A stretch of DNA of 64,000 bases from Armatimonadota bacterium (lineage in GTDB: Bacteria > Armatimonadota > Fimbriimonadia > Fimbriimonadales > Fimbriimonadaceae), in contig JACRPN010000005.1 in NCBI GenBank assembly GCA_016223145.1, positions 40,511-104,510 of the forward strand. The letters are read 5' to 3'. The position numbers and the translations under genes are program-made. The number at the start of each line of letters is the position of its first letter. The first letter of the stretch is position 1. Of this stretch, positions 875-48,522 are shown one piece after another. The notes under the pieces are model-generated. The model did not search any database and was not told the DNA's origin. It was given only the letters and a program-made list of their open reading frames with translations.

Positions 875-2029
875 ATGAAGCTCCACGAATACCAGTCCAA
901 AGACCTCCTGTCCAAGTTCGGCGTACCCGTGCCAAAAGGGGATGTCGCCAATAGCGGAACCCAAGTTGGAAAGCTCGCGGCAGACCTGGGAGGCAAGGTT
1001 GTGGTCAAAGCCCAGGTGCTGATGGGCGGGCGGGGCAAGGCCGGCGGCGTCAAGCTCTTCGAGGATGCAGCGGCCGCTGAGGCGTTTGCGGGCGAACTGA
1101 TCGGCAAGAAGCTGGTGAGCATTCAGAACCCCGCCGGGATGATCGTGGAGAAGGTGCTCGTCGCCGAAATCGTGGACATCGCGAAGGAGTTCTATGTCGC
1201 CGTGCTCCTCGACCGCGAGGTTCAGAAGCACCTCATCATGGTCTCGGCCAAAGGGGGCATGGACATCGAAGAAGTGGCGCACACCGACCCTGGCGCCATC
1301 GCCAAGATGCACATCGATCCCGCCTATGGGCTGTGGGACTTCGAGCTTCGCAAGCTGGTGGCCGACGCGGGCATTCCTGCCGAGGCCCGAAACCAAATGG
1401 TGGGCCTGATCAAGAAGCTGGCAAAGGCGTATCTCGAATCGGACGCGGAGATGGTCGAAATCAACCCGTGTGCGCTCGATGCAGCCGGCAAGGTGATCGC
1501 TGCCGACGCCAAGGTGTCGATCGACGACAATGCACTGTTTCGCCACGCCGAATACAGAGCCACCGCGGACGATAGTGCCGAGGACCCTCTTGAGGCGGAA
1601 GCATCGCGCAGGGGCATCGCCTATGTGCGGCTTGGCGGCGACATCGGCATCATCGGCAACGGCGCGGGGCTGGTGATGTGCTCGATGGACGAGGTGAAAG
1701 CGGCCGGAGGCAACCCGGCGAACTTCCTCGACGTGGGCGGCGGCGCCCAGGCCGAGCGCGTGAAGTCCTGCGTCGAGTTGATCTTGATGGACACCAGTGT
1801 CAAGGGGCTGCTCATCAACATTTTTGGGGGCATCACCCGGTGCGACGAGGTGGCCAAGGGCATCCTGTCTGCCTTTGACGAGCTGAATGTGACGATCCCG
1901 GTGGTGGCGCGAATTGAGGGTACGGCGGCCGAAGAGGGAAGAAAGCTCCTTGAAGGCACCCGCATCCAGCCGGCGGCGACGATGCAAGACGCCGCAGCGA
2001 AGGTCGTCAGCCTCAGCTATGGCCGATAA
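875..2029 (+). CDS. sucC: Succinyl-CoA synthetase (ADP/GDP-forming) beta subunit
   Basis: 384 aa, the normal SucC length. It makes the ATP-grasp/beta half of succinyl-CoA ligase of the TCA cycle (succinyl-CoA + Pi + NDP to succinate + CoA + NTP). Visible hallmarks are the N-terminal MKLHEYQSKDLL, the ATP-grasp segment KAQVLMGGRGKAGGV, EINPCAL in the middle and the phosphate-binding NIFGGITRCDEVAKGI near residue 310. The ATG at 875 is the only start that keeps the conserved N-terminus; no strong Shine-Dalgarno precedes it, but TATCCT (859-864) lies 10 nt upstream. No sucD (alpha subunit) follows; the next gene is folB, 110 bp away, so the partner must be elsewhere. Confidence 0.95.
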   Translation: MKLHEYQSKDLLSKFGVPVPKGDVANSGTQVGKLAADLGGKVVVKAQVLMGGRGKAGGVKLFEDAAAAEAFAGELIGKKLVSIQNPAGMIVEKVLVAEIVDIAKEFYVAVLLDREVQKHLIMVSAKGGMDIEEVAHTDPGAIAKMHIDPAYGLWDFELRKLVADAGIPAEARNQMVGLIKKLAKAYLESDAEMVEINPCALDAAGKVIAADAKVSIDDNALFRHAEYRATADDSAEDPLEAEASRRGIAYVRLGGDIGIIGNGAGLVMCSMDEVKAAGGNPANFLDVGGGAQAERVKSCVELILMDTSVKGLLINIFGGITRCDEVAKGILSAFDELNVTIPVVARIEGTAAEEGRKLLEGTRIQPAATMQDAAAKVVSLSYGR

Positions 2030-2058
2030 TCTGCCGTCGCCCAGTTCAGCCGAGGAAG

Positions 2059-2077
2059 CACAGGTGTCCCGCCTGTG
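2059..2077. repeat. Short palindrome (REP-like), sucC-folB spacer
   Basis: Inverted repeat CACAGG-7 nt-CCTGTG between sucC and folB. There is no T-run after it, so it is not a canonical terminator. It has the same design as other short intergenic palindromes in this window (4364, 9119, 30791, 42803, 43366). Confidence 0.5.
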
Positions 2078-2127
2078 TTGATAGGCACCTTGCGCTAATC
2101 CCTATCCAGTCCAAAACGACTCCCTGC

Positions 2128-2133
2128 TAAACT
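2128..2133 (+). promoter_or_regulatory. Candidate -10 box, leaderless folB transcript
   Basis: TAAACT ends 6 nt before the folB GTG (2140), so a transcript starting about 7 nt downstream would begin at or beside the start codon. The same hexamer at the same distance precedes the SDR gene at 8296. No clear -35 box is visible. Confidence 0.4.
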
Positions 2134-2139
2134 CCAACC

Positions 2140-2505
2140 GTGTTCCAGGTTTTCCTCAAGGGGCTCCAGGTCTACGGCCACCACGGCGTCACAGACGAAG
2201 AGCAGGCCATCGGCCATCGCCTGACCTTCGACGTCACCTTGGACGTCTTTGGCGCGGCGGACGAGACGGATCGCGTTGAAGACACGGTGGACTATGGCGA
2301 TCTTGCCCGCCTGATCGCCTCACGCGCGGCCGGCGAACGCCACAGGACGCTCGAACGCCTAAGCGGAGACATTGCGGCCATGATCCTCATCGCCTATCCG
2401 GCGGTTCGACGCGTTGAGCTGTCCGTCGCCAAGCTCGCGCCGCCATTCCCCGAGGTCGCAGACTTCGCCGGCGTCAGGGTGGTCCTGGACCGGACAAAGC
2501 CATAG
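2140..2505 (+). CDS. folB: Dihydroneopterin aldolase
   Basis: 121 aa, normal size for FolB, which cleaves 7,8-dihydroneopterin to 6-hydroxymethyl-dihydropterin and glycolaldehyde in folate synthesis. The start has the family pattern F-L-KGLQVYGHHGVTDEEQ with the conserved Glu-rich loop; VDYGDLARLI and the C-terminal VELSVAKLAPPFP are also family hallmarks. It starts with GTG at 2140; no Shine-Dalgarno is present, but a -10-like TAAACT ends 6 nt upstream. Other folate genes (folP, folK) are not adjacent. Confidence 0.93.
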   Translation: MFQVFLKGLQVYGHHGVTDEEQAIGHRLTFDVTLDVFGAADETDRVEDTVDYGDLARLIASRAAGERHRTLERLSGDIAAMILIAYPAVRRVELSVAKLAPPFPEVADFAGVRVVLDRTKP

Positions 2506-2563
2506 ACACGGGAAATAAGAAATTCTGAAAAAATACGGCTACTTGTGAAACGAAACTGAAGCG

Positions 2564-2989
2564 ATGGCGGTATTCTCATCAGAGATGTCAAACAACGGCG
2601 CATTTCCAATTCCCTCGCGGGATCCGGTCGGCGGTGGCTCGCTGGTCATCACTGAACTCACGGCCGAGGACTCAGGCGTGGTGATTCGCGGGAAGTTCGC
2701 GGTGCCCAGGTATTCGCGCCTCGACGAAGACCAGGCCAAGTTCCTGGAAACGTTTCTGCGCTGTCGCGGGATGCTCGCGAGCGTGGAGAAAGAGCTTGGC
2801 CTGAGCTACCCGACCGTGCGCAGCCGGCTGGACGCGCTCCTGGAGGCCTTGGAATTGACCCCCGTACGAGACGAGAACCGCAAGGAGAGAATCGGCGCGA
2901 ACAAGAGGGCGATCCTGGATCAGCTCGAGCGCGGCGAAATCGGCCCTGAAGAGGCCAAAAGAAAGATCAAAGAAGGAGCGACCCGGTGA
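2564..2989 (+). CDS. DUF2089 family protein, helix-turn-helix type
   Basis: 141 aa. Residues about 45-105 form the DUF2089 core: a beta pair (VVIRGKFAVPRYSRL) followed by helices containing GLSYPTVRSRLDALLEAL, which reads as a DNA-binding helix-turn-helix. The C-terminus (IGPEEAKRKIKEGA) is charged and helical. It overlaps the next gene by 4 bp (GTGA), so the two are translationally coupled. In other bacteria DUF2089 proteins often sit beside DUF4097/YvlB-like proteins, and this one probably regulates its neighbour; that role is inference. An alternative ATG lies at 2585. Confidence 0.85.
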   Translation: MAVFSSEMSNNGAFPIPSRDPVGGGSLVITELTAEDSGVVIRGKFAVPRYSRLDEDQAKFLETFLRCRGMLASVEKELGLSYPTVRSRLDALLEALELTPVRDENRKERIGANKRAILDQLERGEIGPEEAKRKIKEGATR

Positions 2990-4239
2990 AAGAAGAGATT
3001 CGACGCATCATGAACCTTGTTAAGGAGGGCAAGCTAAGTCCGGAGGACGCAGCGGACCTCATAGACGCCTTTGCCTCGACGCCCGAAGAAGCGGCTGCCG
3101 AAGGAGAGCCGAGCGATGAGGCAACTGCAGATGGCCAGACGCCTCCCCCGCCTCCTTCAGGCGCCACTCCTCCTCCGCCACCGGGCGGGGCTGAGAAGGA
3201 CCCGGTCAAGGGCTTTGTGGATTGGGTTGAAGGCGTGGCCCGAGATGTGACCAAGAACGTCAATTGGGAGGACGTCGCGCGGCAGGTTCGCGAAGGCGCC
3301 AAGAAGGGCGTCGTTGGGCTTCATGTGAACATCGAAAACCTGCGCAAAGGGCGCGTCAATTTCCCGTGGGGGTCCGCCTATGAGACCCGAAACATCAGCC
3401 TGCCGATCACGGTGCCCAAGGGGAAGACCCTTCGGGTCGAAAACCCCAACGGCGATGTACGCATCTGGGGCGGCCACAGCGAGGGCGTGATCAACGCCAC
3501 GCTCAAGATGCGCGGGACCGACGAGCAGGAAGCGCGCGAAAACGCCGATGCGTTCACCTTGCTTGTGGATGAGAGTGAGCACGAGGTGGTTTTGCGCCAG
3601 CACGATACGCCAGGCATCACCTTGGACCTGGAGATTCATCTCAAAGGCCACGCAAACCTCGACGTCAAACAGATGAACGGCGATCTGGAGATCAGCAACA
3701 CCGGCGGCAACTGCCGGGTGCACAGCATCTCGGGCGACGTGAGTCTTTCGGGCCTGGACGGGACTGTGGACGTTCAGAACGCGAACGGCGACGTCCGAAT
3801 CTCAGATTCGAAAGTGGTGTCGCTAACGCTTGAAGGCAAGTCAGGCGACATCCTGCTTCAGAGGATCAAAGGCAACATCAACGCGAGAACGGCCCACGGG
3901 GACATCACGCTCCGGGAGTGCATGGGCAAGTCCATCTCCGTGGAATCGATTTCTGGCGACGTGCGGCTGGACCTCGTCGAGCCGATCCGGGGGTTGGTCA
4001 GCGTGCGCACGGTCAACGGCGACACAGCATTGGCGATCGCGGACGGCTCGGACTGCCGCGTGTCCTTGTCTACCCTCAGGGGCGACGTGGAGTGCGATGT
4101 GATGCTCAGTGAGGAAGCGAGGCAGGAGCAACACGTTACGGGCAGACTCGGGGATGGTACGGGCGCGCTCGACGTGAGCGCGGTGAATGGGGACATTCGA
4201 ATGCAGCTCCGAGAGCACATGGCCGCGGCAGCTGATTAG
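2986..4239 (+). CDS. DUF4097 beta-helix repeat protein with YvlB-like N-terminus
   Basis: 417 aa. Residues 1-30 form a short helical pair (EEIRRIMNLVKEGKLSPEDAADLIDA) like the N-terminus of YvlB/SHOCT-type proteins. A Pro-rich linker (about residues 48-67) follows, then a long array of 'GDV/GDI' beta strands (NGDVRIWGG, SISGDVSL, NANGDVRIS, GKSGDILLQ, SISGDVRLD, VNGDIRMQ), the DUF4097 adhesin-like beta-solenoid signature. It has no signal peptide or TM segment. GTG start at 2986 overlaps the DUF2089 stop. Function is unknown; the pairing suggests a regulator with a sensory/structural partner. Confidence 0.88.
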   Translation: MKEEIRRIMNLVKEGKLSPEDAADLIDAFASTPEEAAAEGEPSDEATADGQTPPPPPSGATPPPPPGGAEKDPVKGFVDWVEGVARDVTKNVNWEDVARQVREGAKKGVVGLHVNIENLRKGRVNFPWGSAYETRNISLPITVPKGKTLRVENPNGDVRIWGGHSEGVINATLKMRGTDEQEARENADAFTLLVDESEHEVVLRQHDTPGITLDLEIHLKGHANLDVKQMNGDLEISNTGGNCRVHSISGDVSLSGLDGTVDVQNANGDVRISDSKVVSLTLEGKSGDILLQRIKGNINARTAHGDITLRECMGKSISVESISGDVRLDLVEPIRGLVSVRTVNGDTALAIADGSDCRVSLSTLRGDVECDVMLSEEARQEQHVTGRLGDGTGALDVSAVNGDIRMQLREHMAAAAD

Positions 4240-4363
4240 CCCATGCGGACTTGACAGGGACGTGGCACCGATGCCCGCGTTCGGCTTGTCGCAGGGCTTT
4301 AGGTCTCGGCTCTGCGCTCTCTGCGTTTTCTTGGCGTCCTCTGCGTGAGAGTTCCGGACTGGC

Positions 4364-4379
4364 GCGGGCTGAAGCCCGC
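4364..4379. repeat. REP-like palindrome in 4240-4437 spacer
   Basis: GCGGGCTGAAGCCCGC is a near-perfect palindrome in the non-coding gap between two convergent genes. Just before it (about 4300-4352) lies a low-complexity CTCTGCG-rich stretch of the kind scattered in many bacterial genomes. I see no gene in 4240-4437. Confidence 0.5.
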
Positions 4380-4437
4380 TCAACCCTGAAAAGGCGAGGT
4401 GAACCCCGCCCTCCCTTAGGCTGACCCACGCGCCCAC

Positions 4438-6180
4438 CTATCCGCCGCCGAAGCCGATCCTCACGTCTTTGGCTTGGACCGAGTCGACCGTGAAGGGCAC
4501 GACCAAGAGCATCATTTCGTCCGTCGTCTCCTCGCCCCAACGGATGTCCTTCGGTGGCTTGTGTGGCTGGAACGGGTTCTGCGCCGAGTTGTCGAAGACC
4601 GCCTCAAGGTGGATCTTTGAGCCCATGGGCACCTTCATCGGGTTTTGGAACATGTAGGTCATCTGCCAATTGAAGTCCCAGTTTTTGATCCAGATCATGG
4701 GCTCGCGGCTGCCATCTGGCCTGACCAACTCAGCCTTCATCTGCTTGCCGAGAAGGTGCATGTGCGGCATGGCGCCATAGGCCGTCACGTCGGCGGGAAT
4801 GGGAAAGTCAAACGTCGCTTTGAAGCTGCTCTCCCCCGCTGGAATCTTGAAGAACGGGTTCGCCAACCAGGCGATGTTCATGAGCCGCTCGGGCGGCTTC
4901 CTCGAGAAGTAGAGCCCGATTTTGGTTTGGTCGGACTCCACCTTGCCGCTCTTGTGGTAGTGGATCTGCAGCACGATCTTGGTGCCCGGTTTCAGCTCAA
5001 AGGCGGTCCCATCCGGAGTGAATCCCGGCCTTGAGCCTGGCGCCCAGCCGCCAAGAGACCCGTCCGGGTTGAAACCAAGGCCGCCCCCGGAGGTCGCGTA
5101 GCCTTCCTTGCCGTCTTTGTTCGCCAGGGCCATCCGGTCGCCGCGACCCTTGGCGTCGAGGAAGGCGATCACGTGGTGCACCACGCGTGTGTTGCCGGGC
5201 TTGACCTGGTATCCCTGGACGTAAACCGTCTCTTTGAACCCAGGATCGATTACGAAATGACGGTATTCGTCTTCGCCGGAGGCTTCCACCCGGTAAGGGG
5301 CTTTGGGGCCGATCACCAGATCAGGCTTGCCCAGGCTCCAGTCACCTTTTGGAAACGTGGGTGTCGCGGGCTCTTCCTTCTGATTTCCCCGCTTGGCGCC
5401 GGAGTTAGCCCAGCGCTTCAAGAGTTCGATTTCGCGCTCGGAGAGCGCGTTGTCGTCTTTGAATTCGCCAAATCCGGGAACGGCCTTCCAAGGCGGCATC
5501 GTGCGATTGCCGGTGTAAAACGCGATGTTGGGCGCCCACTTGCGCGCGTTCTCATAGCCCACGAAGGAGATGGGAGCGACCTCGCCGGGTCGGTGGCACG
5601 CCACGCATCGCTTATTCAGAATCGGTGCGATATGCTTGGCGTACGTGACATCGTCGCTCTGAGGCAAGGGTTTGCCGGGCATCAGAATGCAGCCGAAGGT
5701 CGGAGTCTTCGCAAAGGCCAACGGCTTACCCCGGTACAGGTTCCCGAGAACGTTTGCGACGTAGTTCTTGCCGGCGCGGCTTGGGTCCCGGTTATCGAGA
5801 ATCGAGCCCTGATAGATCTTCTTGCCTTTGGCGTCTTTGACGACGGCTGTGGGCACATGGGTGACCCCCTCCTTCCGCGCGAGTTCTCCGCCCACGTCGA
5901 TGCAGTACTCCAGCCTCAGCCCGTAATCCGCGAGGTACTGATCGACCAGAGCCTTGGTCTCCATCTCATTAGAGAAGCAGGCGCTGAAGGTGAATCCCTT
6001 GGGCTGGAACTCGTCCATCAGCTTTTTGATGTCCGGGGCGCTCTTCATGCCGACCGGGCAATCGGTGCTCAGAAACAGGATCACCTTTCCCTTGGCCGCC
6101 GGGGCGGGTCTGGCGAAGGCGAAGATCGCCGCCAACGTGGCGACAACGACGAACAGGACCAGCGCGCGATTCCAGTACAT
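4438..6180 (-). CDS. Thioredoxin-like / cytochrome c / PHM-like copper monooxygenase fusion
   Basis: 580 aa exported protein with three parts. Residues 1-29 are a signal anchor. About 30-150 is a thioredoxin-fold redoxin region with STDCPVG (a single Cys instead of CXXC) and cis-Pro THVPT. About 178-265 is a cytochrome-c-like segment with CVACH (192-196) and Met-Pro-Pro (MPP, 228-230). About 300-575 resembles the copper type II ascorbate-dependent monooxygenase catalytic core: HH at 335-336, HYH at 407-409, HMH at 473-475 and several Met residues around 508-519 as candidate CuH/CuM ligands. Similar fusions occur in Planctomycetes and Acidobacteria (family knowledge). Substrate is unknown. It is transcribed away from the PadR gene at 6337. 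Confidence 0.82.
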   Translation of the reverse strand: MYWNRALVLFVVVATLAAIFAFARPAPAAKGKVILFLSTDCPVGMKSAPDIKKLMDEFQPKGFTFSACFSNEMETKALVDQYLADYGLRLEYCIDVGGELARKEGVTHVPTAVVKDAKGKKIYQGSILDNRDPSRAGKNYVANVLGNLYRGKPLAFAKTPTFGCILMPGKPLPQSDDVTYAKHIAPILNKRCVACHRPGEVAPISFVGYENARKWAPNIAFYTGNRTMPPWKAVPGFGEFKDDNALSEREIELLKRWANSGAKRGNQKEEPATPTFPKGDWSLGKPDLVIGPKAPYRVEASGEDEYRHFVIDPGFKETVYVQGYQVKPGNTRVVHHVIAFLDAKGRGDRMALANKDGKEGYATSGGGLGFNPDGSLGGWAPGSRPGFTPDGTAFELKPGTKIVLQIHYHKSGKVESDQTKIGLYFSRKPPERLMNIAWLANPFFKIPAGESSFKATFDFPIPADVTAYGAMPHMHLLGKQMKAELVRPDGSREPMIWIKNWDFNWQMTYMFQNPMKVPMGSKIHLEAVFDNSAQNPFQPHKPPKDIRWGEETTDEMMLLVVPFTVDSVQAKDVRIGFGGG

Positions 6181-46092: not shown

Positions 46093-46190
46093 TGACTATG
46101 CCTTTGGGAGCAAGGGCAAGTCAAGCGTGGGTTGGCTGACGCCGCCAACCTTCGGCTTTCACGAAAAAGTCAAAATGACCCGTAACCTTG

Positions 46191-46208
46191 TGACGACACT
46201 TGTCGTCA
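46191..46208. promoter_or_regulatory. Operator 1 for BlaI-type repressor
   Basis: TGACGACA-CT-TGTCGTCA, a perfect 8-2-8 dyad. A second one starts 26 bp downstream. The shape (short arms, 2-bp centre, GACA/TGTC core) resembles BlaI/MecI sites, and a BlaI homologue is encoded in the same module at 47195. Confidence 0.75.
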
Positions 46209-46216
46209 AACTCAAA

Positions 46217-46234
46217 TGACGACAACTGTCGTCA
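46217..46234. promoter_or_regulatory. Operator 2 for BlaI-type repressor
   Basis: TGACGACA-AC-TGTCGTCA, identical to operator 1 except for the 2-bp centre. Centre-to-centre distance to operator 1 is 26 bp (about 2.5 helix turns). Both lie ahead of the gene at 46285. Confidence 0.75.
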
Positions 46235-46284
46235 ACGCGCCGCCCGGGTTCAGCCGGCAAGAGCCCGCGGCGGTCGGAGGAAAA

Positions 46285-47118
46285 ATGCTTCGACTCAAAC
46301 TGACACTACGCGCACTTGGCGCCATCGGCATACTCGGCACCGTGGCCTTGGTCATGGCCCAACAGATCGCCTCGAAAGAGACCGGCGGCAACGGACCTCA
46401 GAAGGCCACGGGCTCCCGCTCCAGAGCCGGGGGAGGAGCGGCGATCGTCAACGGCAGGACTTACAAACGGATGGAGTCCGCTCACCCGGGACCCTGGAAG
46501 TTTGAAGCGCCCACTGCTGCACAGCACGTTCTCAAATCCTGGATCATAAGTGAAACCAATCGCCTGATCGACCTTGCAAAGGCCCAGAGCCAGCCTGAGC
46601 GCGTTCAAGGGATTATCGAGGCTCAGTGCTACTACATCTTGACGACGATGCGACCCGACGAGCAGAAGCACGAGATGTACGACGTCTGGAACGTCGATGT
46701 CTGGCAGGCGGGGGGCAAGTGGGACCACGTCACAAGTGCCCCATCCTTGGTCAACGCCCTCGCCAAGATCGAAGCCAAGCAGAACGCGACGATCAGCGCC
46801 ATCTGGGACAAGGCTCGCGAAGACCACATGCGGCCCTACATGGAGCTCAGCCGACGAATCACAAAGGAAGTCGGAAACGATCAGGTGCGCCATCACCAAC
46901 GGTATACCGAGGAGCTTCGCAAGCTGCAAGGCGAGAAGTCGAAGTCGGACGTTGCGACGGATCGCATGACCCGATTGAGACCAGCCCTCAACGCCGTCTA
47001 TGGGCAGCTCAACGCTGCCCAAAAGCGAGAGTGGGACCGGATCCTCGTCAACTTCAACCAGGACGTGCTGTCGGCATATCGCGGCGAGGCCGTCAAGCTT
47101 GGCGTGGCAACCAAGTAG
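46285..47118 (+). CDS. Unknown secreted protein controlled by BlaI-type operators
   Basis: 277 aa from ATG 46285, which has a strong SD (GGAGG at 46276-46280). An ATG at 46216 would put operator 2 inside the coding sequence and has no SD. MLRLKLTLRALGAIGILGTVALVMA is a signal peptide. The mature part is helical with charged stretches (EQKHEMYDVWNVDVW, KAREDHMRPYMELSRRITKE) and ends with LNAAQKREWDRILVNFN, which recalls the LTxxQ motif of Spy-like periplasmic chaperones (weak). No family recognised. Product of the regulon whose sensor and repressor follow. Confidence 0.72.
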   Translation: MLRLKLTLRALGAIGILGTVALVMAQQIASKETGGNGPQKATGSRSRAGGGAAIVNGRTYKRMESAHPGPWKFEAPTAAQHVLKSWIISETNRLIDLAKAQSQPERVQGIIEAQCYYILTTMRPDEQKHEMYDVWNVDVWQAGGKWDHVTSAPSLVNALAKIEAKQNATISAIWDKAREDHMRPYMELSRRITKEVGNDQVRHHQRYTEELRKLQGEKSKSDVATDRMTRLRPALNAVYGQLNAAQKREWDRILVNFNQDVLSAYRGEAVKLGVATK

Positions 47119-47158
47119 TTCGCTTTCACTCTGACCCATCACCTAGACCAGCAAGAAA

Positions 47159-47178
47159 GGCCCGGCGGTAGCCGGGCC
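47159..47178 (+). terminator. Hairpin between the secreted-protein gene and blaI
   Basis: GGCCCGGC-GGTA-GCCGGGCC, perfect 8-bp stem, 4-nt loop. No T-run follows on the plus strand; on the minus strand it is followed by TTTCTT. It could reduce readthrough into blaI/M56 or stabilise the upstream mRNA end. Confidence 0.5.
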
Positions 47179-47194
47179 GAAGACCTCAAAGAAG

Positions 47195-47587
47195 ATGAAC
47201 AAGAACGAACGCTTGAGCCTCGGCGCCTCGGAAGCCGAAGTGCTGACCTATATCGCGAGCCATCCTGGCGTCACCGTCGGCCAGGTGGCTCAGTACTTTG
47301 CTTCAGCCAAAGGTTGGGTGCGAACCACCTTGCAGACGACGATGGATCGCCTCCTGGCAAAGGGCCTTCTTCGGCGACAATCCGGGGAAGGCATCGCCCG
47401 GTATGAGAGCACCATGAGTTCTGAGAACATCCGAGAGGGGTTGGTGAGCACCTTTGTCGAGGGCACGTTGGGCGGCTCGCTTTCGCCTTTCGTTGCCTAT
47501 CTGAGCGGCGGAGCGAACATAACGGAGCAAGACCACGCGGAATTGAAGCGGTTGGTCGAGGAGTTGGACAGGAGGAGAGGGAAGTGA
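47195..47587 (+). CDS. BlaI/MecI/CopY family repressor
   Basis: 130 aa, family length. Winged-helix: SEAEVLTYIASHPGVTVGQVAQYFASAKGWVRTTLQTTMDRLLAKGLLRRQSGEG, then RYESTMSSENIREGLVSTFVEGTLGGSLSPFVAYLSGG, whose S-E-N-I region covers the usual protease cleavage segment of BlaI. It is released from DNA on cleavage by its partner protease, here the M56 protein encoded next. GTGA overlap with the M56 gene. Target most likely the twin dyads at 46191-46234. MNKNERLSLG is a short unstructured start. Confidence 0.92.
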   Translation: MNKNERLSLGASEAEVLTYIASHPGVTVGQVAQYFASAKGWVRTTLQTTMDRLLAKGLLRRQSGEGIARYESTMSSENIREGLVSTFVEGTLGGSLSPFVAYLSGGANITEQDHAELKRLVEELDRRRGK

Positions 47588-48522
47588 TCGAAACCTCGGC
47601 TGTAGCTCTACTTGGAGCAGCGCTCTCAGCTTCTCCGTTGGTCCTCTTTGCGCTCGCGTCGGGGCGATGCCCGAAGCTGTCGCCTCGGTTCAGGCTTTGG
47701 TCCGGACGCATTGCGTTTCTCAAGCTCCTGCTCGGGCTGCTTCCGCTCGGAATCTGGATTCAGACCCGAGTTCCCGTTGGGTCCGGAACGGGCAGCGACA
47801 CGCAGACCCCAATGCTATGGGCTTTCCTTCTTTCAGTCTGGCTCTTGGGCGTTTTGGCCGTCCTGGGGGACATGGCCTCCTCTGCGATGAGAACGAGAGC
47901 GGTGGTCCGTTTGGCCAAGCCTCTCGCGGTTCAGCCCGAACATGGCGTCCAGTTCTTGGAGGTTCAGGGGGCGGCTTGCCCCATGGCCACCGGGTGGCTC
48001 CATCCAAAGCTACTGTTGCCCCCCAACTTCGATCAGCAGGCACAGCAGTCCGCCGTTCAGCATGAACTTGCTCACGTTCGCCATGCCGACTTGGTCTGGA
48101 GCGTCTTCTACCGGATCGTCTGCGCGGTGTTCTGGTTTCACCCGCTGGCCTTCGTCTTAGAAAGGGAAGTACACCTTTGGCAGGAGGTCGTTGCAGACCA
48201 GTCGGCATGTATGGCAGCGGCAACATCCCCTGCCGAACACGCCGTTCTGATTCTTGCCGCCACCCGGAATGAGCCAACCGCGCTCATCGCAACGGCCCTT
48301 TCCGGCGATGGGCGGCTCGTCAAGAGGCGCATGGAGGCGATCTTTCAGCAGGGAAGCGGCTCAAAAGCGCTTCTTCTGGCAGGCATCCTGATCGGCTTTG
48401 CCTGTCTGGCTCCAGCTTGGGTGCCCTATTCCAGGGAAGTCCGGAGCATTCCAGCCCGTTCGAGGGCTCTGGCGGAACCCATCAACGCCCCTTCCGTCGA
48501 GATGGCCACACGAGCTCAATAA
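47584..48522 (+). CDS. M56 family membrane metalloprotease, BlaR1-like sensor protease
   Basis: 312 aa. Zinc-protease motif HELAH at 160-164 with a further Glu at 201 (WQEVVADQSA). TM helices at about 6-27, 43-60, 78-96, 171-191 and 265-283. It lacks the large extracellular penicillin-binding domain of BlaR1, leaving only a short tail after TM5, so the signal is not beta-lactam binding by that domain. It is predicted to cleave or trigger cleavage of the BlaI homologue (4-bp overlap). Convergent with the glycosyltransferase at 48525. Confidence 0.9.
   Translation: MIETSAVALLGAALSASPLVLFALASGRCPKLSPRFRLWSGRIAFLKLLLGLLPLGIWIQTRVPVGSGTGSDTQTPMLWAFLLSVWLLGVLAVLGDMASSAMRTRAVVRLAKPLAVQPEHGVQFLEVQGAACPMATGWLHPKLLLPPNFDQQAQQSAVQHELAHVRHADLVWSVFYRIVCAVFWFHPLAFVLEREVHLWQEVVADQSACMAAATSPAEHAVLILAATRNEPTALIATALSGDGRLVKRRMEAIFQQGSGSKALLLAGILIGFACLAPAWVPYSREVRSIPARSRALAEPINAPSVEMATRAQ

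Follow-up and report, generated by a model that had tools for sequence, protein, structure and literature searches.

An apparently autoregulated BlaI/M56 operon of an Armatimonadota bacterium encodes a secreted LTXXQ-like protein and a protease without a sensor domain

We analysed a 64-kb stretch of the genome of an Armatimonadota bacterium (the window) in which three consecutive genes encode a 277-aa secreted protein, a BlaI-type repressor and an M56 membrane protease (Table 1). The reading that we favor, with moderate confidence, is that these genes form an autoregulated, BlaI-repressed envelope-stress operon, and that its LTXXQ-like secreted product is a probable trans-acting partner of an M56 protease lacking a sensor domain of its own. 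The wiring of this circuit is well supported: comparison among related loci brings out the probable link between dyads and BlaI, the gene order and its conservation, the missing M56 tail and the association with LTXXQ proteins.

Table 1. Features of the BlaI/M56 module, in window coordinates
Feature	Position	Strand	Basis
GTAAC element, possible promoter part	46182..46186	+	just 5' of dyad 1
Dyad 1, TGACGACA-CT-TGTCGTCA, probable BlaI operator	46191..46208	.	exact; fits RNYKACANNYGTMRNY
Dyad 2, TGACGACA-AC-TGTCGTCA, probable BlaI operator	46217..46234	.	exact; fits RNYKACANNYGTMRNY
GGAGG ribosome-binding site of the secreted gene	46276..46280	+	sequence
277-aa secreted protein, by weak evidence divergent LTXXQ (Spy/CpxP-like)	46285..47118	+	sub-threshold LTXXQ match, homologues, profile match
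LTXXQ-like motif MRPDEQK (residues 122-128)	46648..46668	+	alignment, profile comparison
LTXXQ-like motif LNAAQKREW (residues 242-250)	47008..47034	+	alignment, profile comparison
GC-rich hairpin GGCCCGGC-GGTA-GCCGGGCC, no T-run	47159..47178	+	between secreted gene and blaI
BlaI-type repressor, 130 aa	47195..47587	+	Penicillinase_R PF03965, 2.5e-20
M56 (BlaR1-type) membrane protease, 312 aa, GTG start, without C-terminal extracytoplasmic domain	47584..48522	+	Peptidase_M56 PF05569, 3e-18
HELAH zinc-protease motif of M56	48061..48075	+	sequence; BlaR1 active-site alignment

Operon layout and candidate operators

The secreted gene lies first, followed by blaI and then by the M56 gene, which starts within the last 4 bp of blaI. 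Because the flanking genes are on the other strand (a mutase and a MeaB-like gene upstream and a glycosyltransferase gene downstream, named from their translations), the three-gene unit stands alone. The module carries neither a beta-lactamase nor a penicillin-binding protein. The MeaB-like neighbor is absent from the congeners in an empty-site comparison. Recent import of the module was considered and is not supported, as its base composition and GC3 match those of neighboring genes. The genome has only one other BlaI/M56 pair, L046 (G000:C13:148500-156500; blaI 3812-4234 and M56 1368-3815, both on the minus strand), where a long M56 of 815 aa and its blaI are found in a cell-division region directly downstream of ftsZ and ftsA, as read from translations.

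The two dyads are exact and lie where an earlier note on this DNA had placed them, 26 bp apart from start to start, in front of the secreted gene rather than directly before blaI. Allowing up to three mismatches, we find three dyad matches in the window against a mean of 0.28 in shuffled sequence, with three reached in 0 of 100 shuffles. The note had suggested a genome-wide search, expecting random scatter if its idea was wrong; across the 3.87-Mb source genome (97% complete), dyads 1 and 2 are the only perfect copies. That scan also returned one copy with two mismatches (C1:121212), which we rejected as a third operator since it falls within a gene for an unrelated repeat protein. For CopY repressors, which are relatives of BlaI, an operator consensus RNYKACANNYGTMRNY has been proposed from binding studies and bioinformatics (PMC7253601), and the central 16 bases of both dyads fit it, as does nothing else in the 64 kb.

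We also surveyed 102 BlaI loci from 85 genomes, nearly all belonging to the window's bacterial family. Near blaI starts, dyads of the form GACA-NN-TGTC reach about 20 times the density seen in the rest of these loci. The BlaI clade of the window has them at 21 of its 37 loci, the other clade at 1 of 65; many loci have two dyads 23-41 bp apart directly 5' of blaI. Neither a close relative of the window BlaI nor the motif GANGACANNTGTCNTC was found in the two congener genomes. The consensus fit, the enrichment near blaI in the window's clade and the absence from congeners strongly support dyads 1 and 2 as predicted BlaI operators. The repressor–operator link, which the earlier note had drawn from proximity and site shape, thus gains comparative backing from genome-unique dyads, a shared family consensus and the twin dyads of homologous modules (see below). 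In all four modules, a GTAAC element precedes dyad 1 by 3-5 nt.

Similar dyads lie before other kinds of genes at other BlaI loci. At L035 (3873-4907) and L036 (1785-3164), in other genera of the family, GACA-NN-TGTC dyads precede secreted PD40 beta-propeller genes beside blaI/M56, and other secreted products, such as these propellers, may be similarly wired. At L032 (G018:C4), dyads at 509 and 2999 stand before blaI and before a secreted repeat gene 3' of M56; the M56 tail there has repeats resembling those of the co-regulated secreted protein, and the two may be kin.

The repressor is of the BlaI type, as first described, with PF03965 covering residues 9-123 of 130 and profile positions 1-115 of 115, and it matches BlaI and MecI structures. 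In alignment, its Y102-L103 falls opposite N101-F102, the site of cleavage in staphylococci, and a hydrophobic P1' residue at this position is kept in most loci compared. The hairpin between the secreted gene and blaI recurs at the corresponding position in each of the four modules (the window, L047, L068 and L069), with z-scores of -0.3 in the window and -1.9 to -3.5 in the others; since the window hairpin is no more stable than shuffled sequence, its recurrent position alone is notable there. Perhaps it stabilizes the mRNA of the first cistron or limits read-through.

The secreted protein and its homologues

The 277-aa open reading frame is preceded by GGAGG and begins with a signal sequence, a hydrophobic N-terminal stretch (approximately residues 1-25) read from the sequence. 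We discarded the upstream start at 46216, which would give 300 aa, because it falls on the margin of dyad 2, GGAGG precedes 46285 and the homologues begin at the equivalent of 46285.

Searching 291 genomes of the phylum, we found three homologues, in three other genera of the same family: G083 (the MAG Armatimonadetes bacterium SZAS-3), G098 and G105. They surfaced only through family-wide and profile searches; the phylum-wide search gave no credible homologue beyond these three, and a single-sequence search of the 60 nearest genomes returned only the protein itself. In all three cases, the homologous gene lies 54-56 bp upstream of blaI, which is followed by M56, and the twin dyads are spaced at 25, 27 and 25 bp, compared with 26 bp in the window, although in G098 dyad 2 is degenerate (three mismatches). 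Across the modules, dyad 2 is 42-62 bp upstream of the start codon. Because the twin dyads are kept even though the homologues are just 20-24% identical to the window protein in a joint alignment, the operator pair appears to have outlived most of the protein sequence. The earlier note would have been refuted had homologues of the secreted gene never adjoined blaI/M56; in fact, all four family members are encoded immediately 5' of this pair, each with twin dyads in front. With three genes alone on their strand, dyads found nowhere else in the genome and a module that recurs in homologues, the description of a self-contained circuit gains support.

The earlier note assigned the secreted protein to no known family. 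It is true that nothing exceeds a Pfam threshold, but the statement is too strong, as a sub-threshold match to LTXXQ (PF07813; E 0.047, 14.8 bits, with a gathering cut-off of 24.3 bits) is made credible by comparative evidence. The G083 homologue also matches LTXXQ under the cut-off (E 0.0054, 17.9 bits), and the other two homologues, G098 and G105, have no Pfam matches. The window match falls on the C-terminal motif, which reads LNAAQKREW, LTPEQAKEW, LTNEQQAEW and LSKTQLAEF in the four homologues, with L, Q and E invariant (L242, Q246 and E249 of the window protein). A profile of the four members aligned with other M56-linked LTXXQ proteins at 94% probability over both motifs, and LTXXQ is the top Pfam match of other M56-linked proteins, namely L108, L136 and the tail of L102.

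The best PDB profile match of the secreted family is Spy, at a nonsignificant E of 0.53, and a single-sequence PDB search with the 277-aa protein gave nothing. AlphaFold gave a pLDDT of 49 from a single sequence and 54.8 from two; the latter model is all-helical after the signal sequence, at low confidence, and Foldseek found no fold match for it. A PHROGs match (E 0.005) was set aside as a chance match between helical sequences; the family concerned is short and has no assigned function. Formal filing under PF07813 is precluded because the cut-off is missed; we nevertheless consider it quite likely that this helical protein is a distant member of the LTXXQ (Spy/CpxP-like) family.

Tail-less M56 proteases and LTXXQ neighbors

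The M56 protease was originally described as lacking a penicillin-binding sensor domain, and this is borne out: its HELAH and EVVAD (E-x-x-A-D) motifs align with BlaR1, the protein ends 37 aa past the protease core, and Pfam and NCBIfam scans detected neither such a sensor nor any other significant domain. The module is therefore a BlaI/M56 pair and not a BlaR1 beta-lactam receptor system.

M56 lies beside blaI in 99 of the 102 surveyed loci, and 93 complete pairs were used for tail counts. The median M56 in this set is 615 aa long, with about 297 aa beyond the protease core, the region that forms the sensor in BlaR1. Only 8 of the 93 have a tail shorter than 60 aa, including the M56 proteins of all four modules (308-331 aa in full length); a ninth candidate, L164, was set aside as its core match reaches the end of the 533-aa protein. 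A secreted gene with an LTxxQ motif, which is short, is adjacent on the same strand to 6 of the 8 tail-less M56 genes and to 0 of the 85 tailed ones, a grouping set after the data were seen and with a Fisher value (3.7e-8) that overstates the case because there are few independent events: the four modules form one clade (support 95/81) apart from G062 and G089, and an AU test did not reject a single clade for all six associated loci (p 0.33). The six include G098, which was overlooked by the automatic signal-sequence filter (automatic count 5/8), while the 0/85 comes from the same script. The LTxxQ gene is upstream in the four modules and downstream in G062 and G089. With only about four LTXXQ matches per genome here, this adjacency is far above chance placement. 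In a seventh tail-less case, G106, an LTXXQ gene is convergent, and L126 (G033:C1:1453618-1459971) is an exception to the association, with no LTXXQ neighbor.

At L102 (G063:C1), the M56 tail (4263-5072, plus strand), in the place of the BlaR1 sensor, matches LTXXQ below the cut-off (E 0.00056, 21.0 bits), and twin dyads lie 5' of blaI. By its sequence, this tail appears to be a natural fusion of M56 and an LTXXQ-like domain. At L034 (G019:C1), a secreted gene (1108-1962) lies just downstream of M56 (1984-3360), and the C-terminal ends of the M56 tail and the secreted protein are nearly identical, another hint of a shared M56 tail and secreted partner.

A proposed circuit, its alternatives and its relatives

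In the reading that we favor, BlaI dimers would occupy both dyads at the secreted gene's promoter and repress that gene, blaI and M56 together. Disturbance of the envelope would activate the M56 protease, which would then cleave BlaI and derepress the operon. BlaR1 cleaves BlaI directly (PMC9834060), and on the strength of its homology with BlaR1, M56 should do the same; cleavage and derepression are in this sense drawn from known systems. The secreted protein would most likely have a double role like that of CpxP, a product of the very pathway that it holds back: CpxP binds CpxA and, under stress, either leaves it or is degraded (PMC7593790). In the same way, the secreted protein would protect the envelope and restrain M56, so that when it is drawn away M56 would be released, the secreted protein standing in for the missing sensor domain. 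We infer this partner role from three findings: M56 has no sensor domain, LTXXQ genes go with tail-less M56, and at L102 the two are fused. A protective role is conjectural, as is the kind of signal. The "new effector" of the earlier note is thus an operon product as stated, but it is probably also a periplasmic partner of the protease, given its association with tail-less M56 and the fused case. More specifically, and only tentatively, the module might be a split BlaR1: in this family of Armatimonadota, a separately encoded, secreted Spy/CpxP-like protein would have supplanted the M56 sensor domain, or be that domain detached from the protease, and would control the protease in trans, with BlaI cleavage answering envelope folding or metal stress rather than beta-lactams.

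The LTXXQ-like protein could instead be an output only, an envelope chaperone or metal binder, with the tail-less M56 sensing stress through its own TM helices and short loops without a partner. Spy is just such an output and is not known to feed back on its regulators; a hairpin 3' of the secreted gene, present in every module, would be in keeping with more synthesis of the product than of the regulators, and the unrelated secreted genes behind dyads at other BlaI loci of the family, such as those for PD40 propellers, look like outputs. We think this somewhat unlikely, as it leaves unexplained both the LTXXQ neighbors of tail-less rather than tailed M56 and the one M56 that ends in an LTXXQ-like domain. 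It is also conceivable, but less probable again, that the secreted protein belongs to an unrelated helical family that resembles LTXXQ by chance, in which case the wiring would stand and the role of the product would differ. Every single-sequence LTXXQ match is under the curated cut-off, helical proteins yield spurious profile matches, and the fold is predicted without confidence; against this, three residues of the C-terminal motif are invariant across four very divergent proteins, the L108, L136 and L102 sequences have LTXXQ as their top match and align with the secreted family over the motifs, and Spy, though not significant, is its best PDB profile match.

A response to beta-lactams or other cell-wall antibiotics, in which M56 and BlaI would react to wall fragments and the secreted protein would protect the wall, strikes us as highly improbable. 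In Bacillus licheniformis, BlaI reportedly responds to a fragment of peptidoglycan (PMC3305447), and the other BlaI/M56 pair in the source genome adjoins ftsZ and ftsA; however, the M56 considered here has no penicillin-binding sensor domain, and the module includes no beta-lactamase or penicillin-binding protein.

To our knowledge, many bacteria have BlaI/M56 pairs for which no beta-lactam sensing is known. In mycobacteria, the BlaI/BlaR pair Rv1846c/Rv1845c consists of BlaI and a BlaR-like M56 without a penicillin-binding sensor, and we know of no adjacent LTXXQ gene at that locus. Like the bla and mec divergons of Staphylococcus and B. licheniformis (blaZ/blaP-blaI-blaR1 and mecA-mecI-mecR1), the module places a BlaI-type repressor gene beside an M56 protease gene, has at least two dyads as operators, predicted ones in its case, and would include the regulators within their own regulon (PMC3305447; PMC9834060). 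It differs from them in having no penicillin-binding sensor, beta-lactamase or PBP2a, in placing the target gene first in a single operon rather than divergently, and in its operator core, GACA-NN-TGTC as opposed to TACA-NN-TGTA. With the enterobacterial CpxP-CpxA-CpxR and ZraP-ZraSR systems it would share an envelope-stress logic, in which an LTXXQ-family periplasmic protein is made by the pathway that it may restrain (PMC7593790), whereas here an M56 protease and a repressor would carry the signal instead of a kinase and response regulator, and restraint of M56 is the step we infer. The CopY/CopR copper repressors belong to the same repressor superfamily, their family consensus accommodates the module dyads, and two-operator layouts have been described for them (PMC7253601); CopY, however, is metal-controlled through a Cys-X-Cys motif, which is absent from the sequence of the window BlaI, and the latter is paired with a protease.

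Taken singly, none of the elements (BlaI, M56, the operators and the LTXXQ protein) is new in kind, but the pairing of LTXXQ with M56 is undescribed in searchable papers, a body of literature that leaves out most subscription journals and in which we found no LTXXQ or CpxP protein tied to BlaI/M56. The module offers a concrete sensor candidate for BlaI/M56 systems, an LTXXQ-like partner encoded as a separate gene when M56 is tail-less and once as an M56 tail, and its small, defined candidate operator, TGACGACA-NN-TGTCGTCA, makes the circuit testable. If our reading is true, BlaR1-style repressor proteolysis and CpxP-style periplasmic restraint would be joined in one three-gene circuit.
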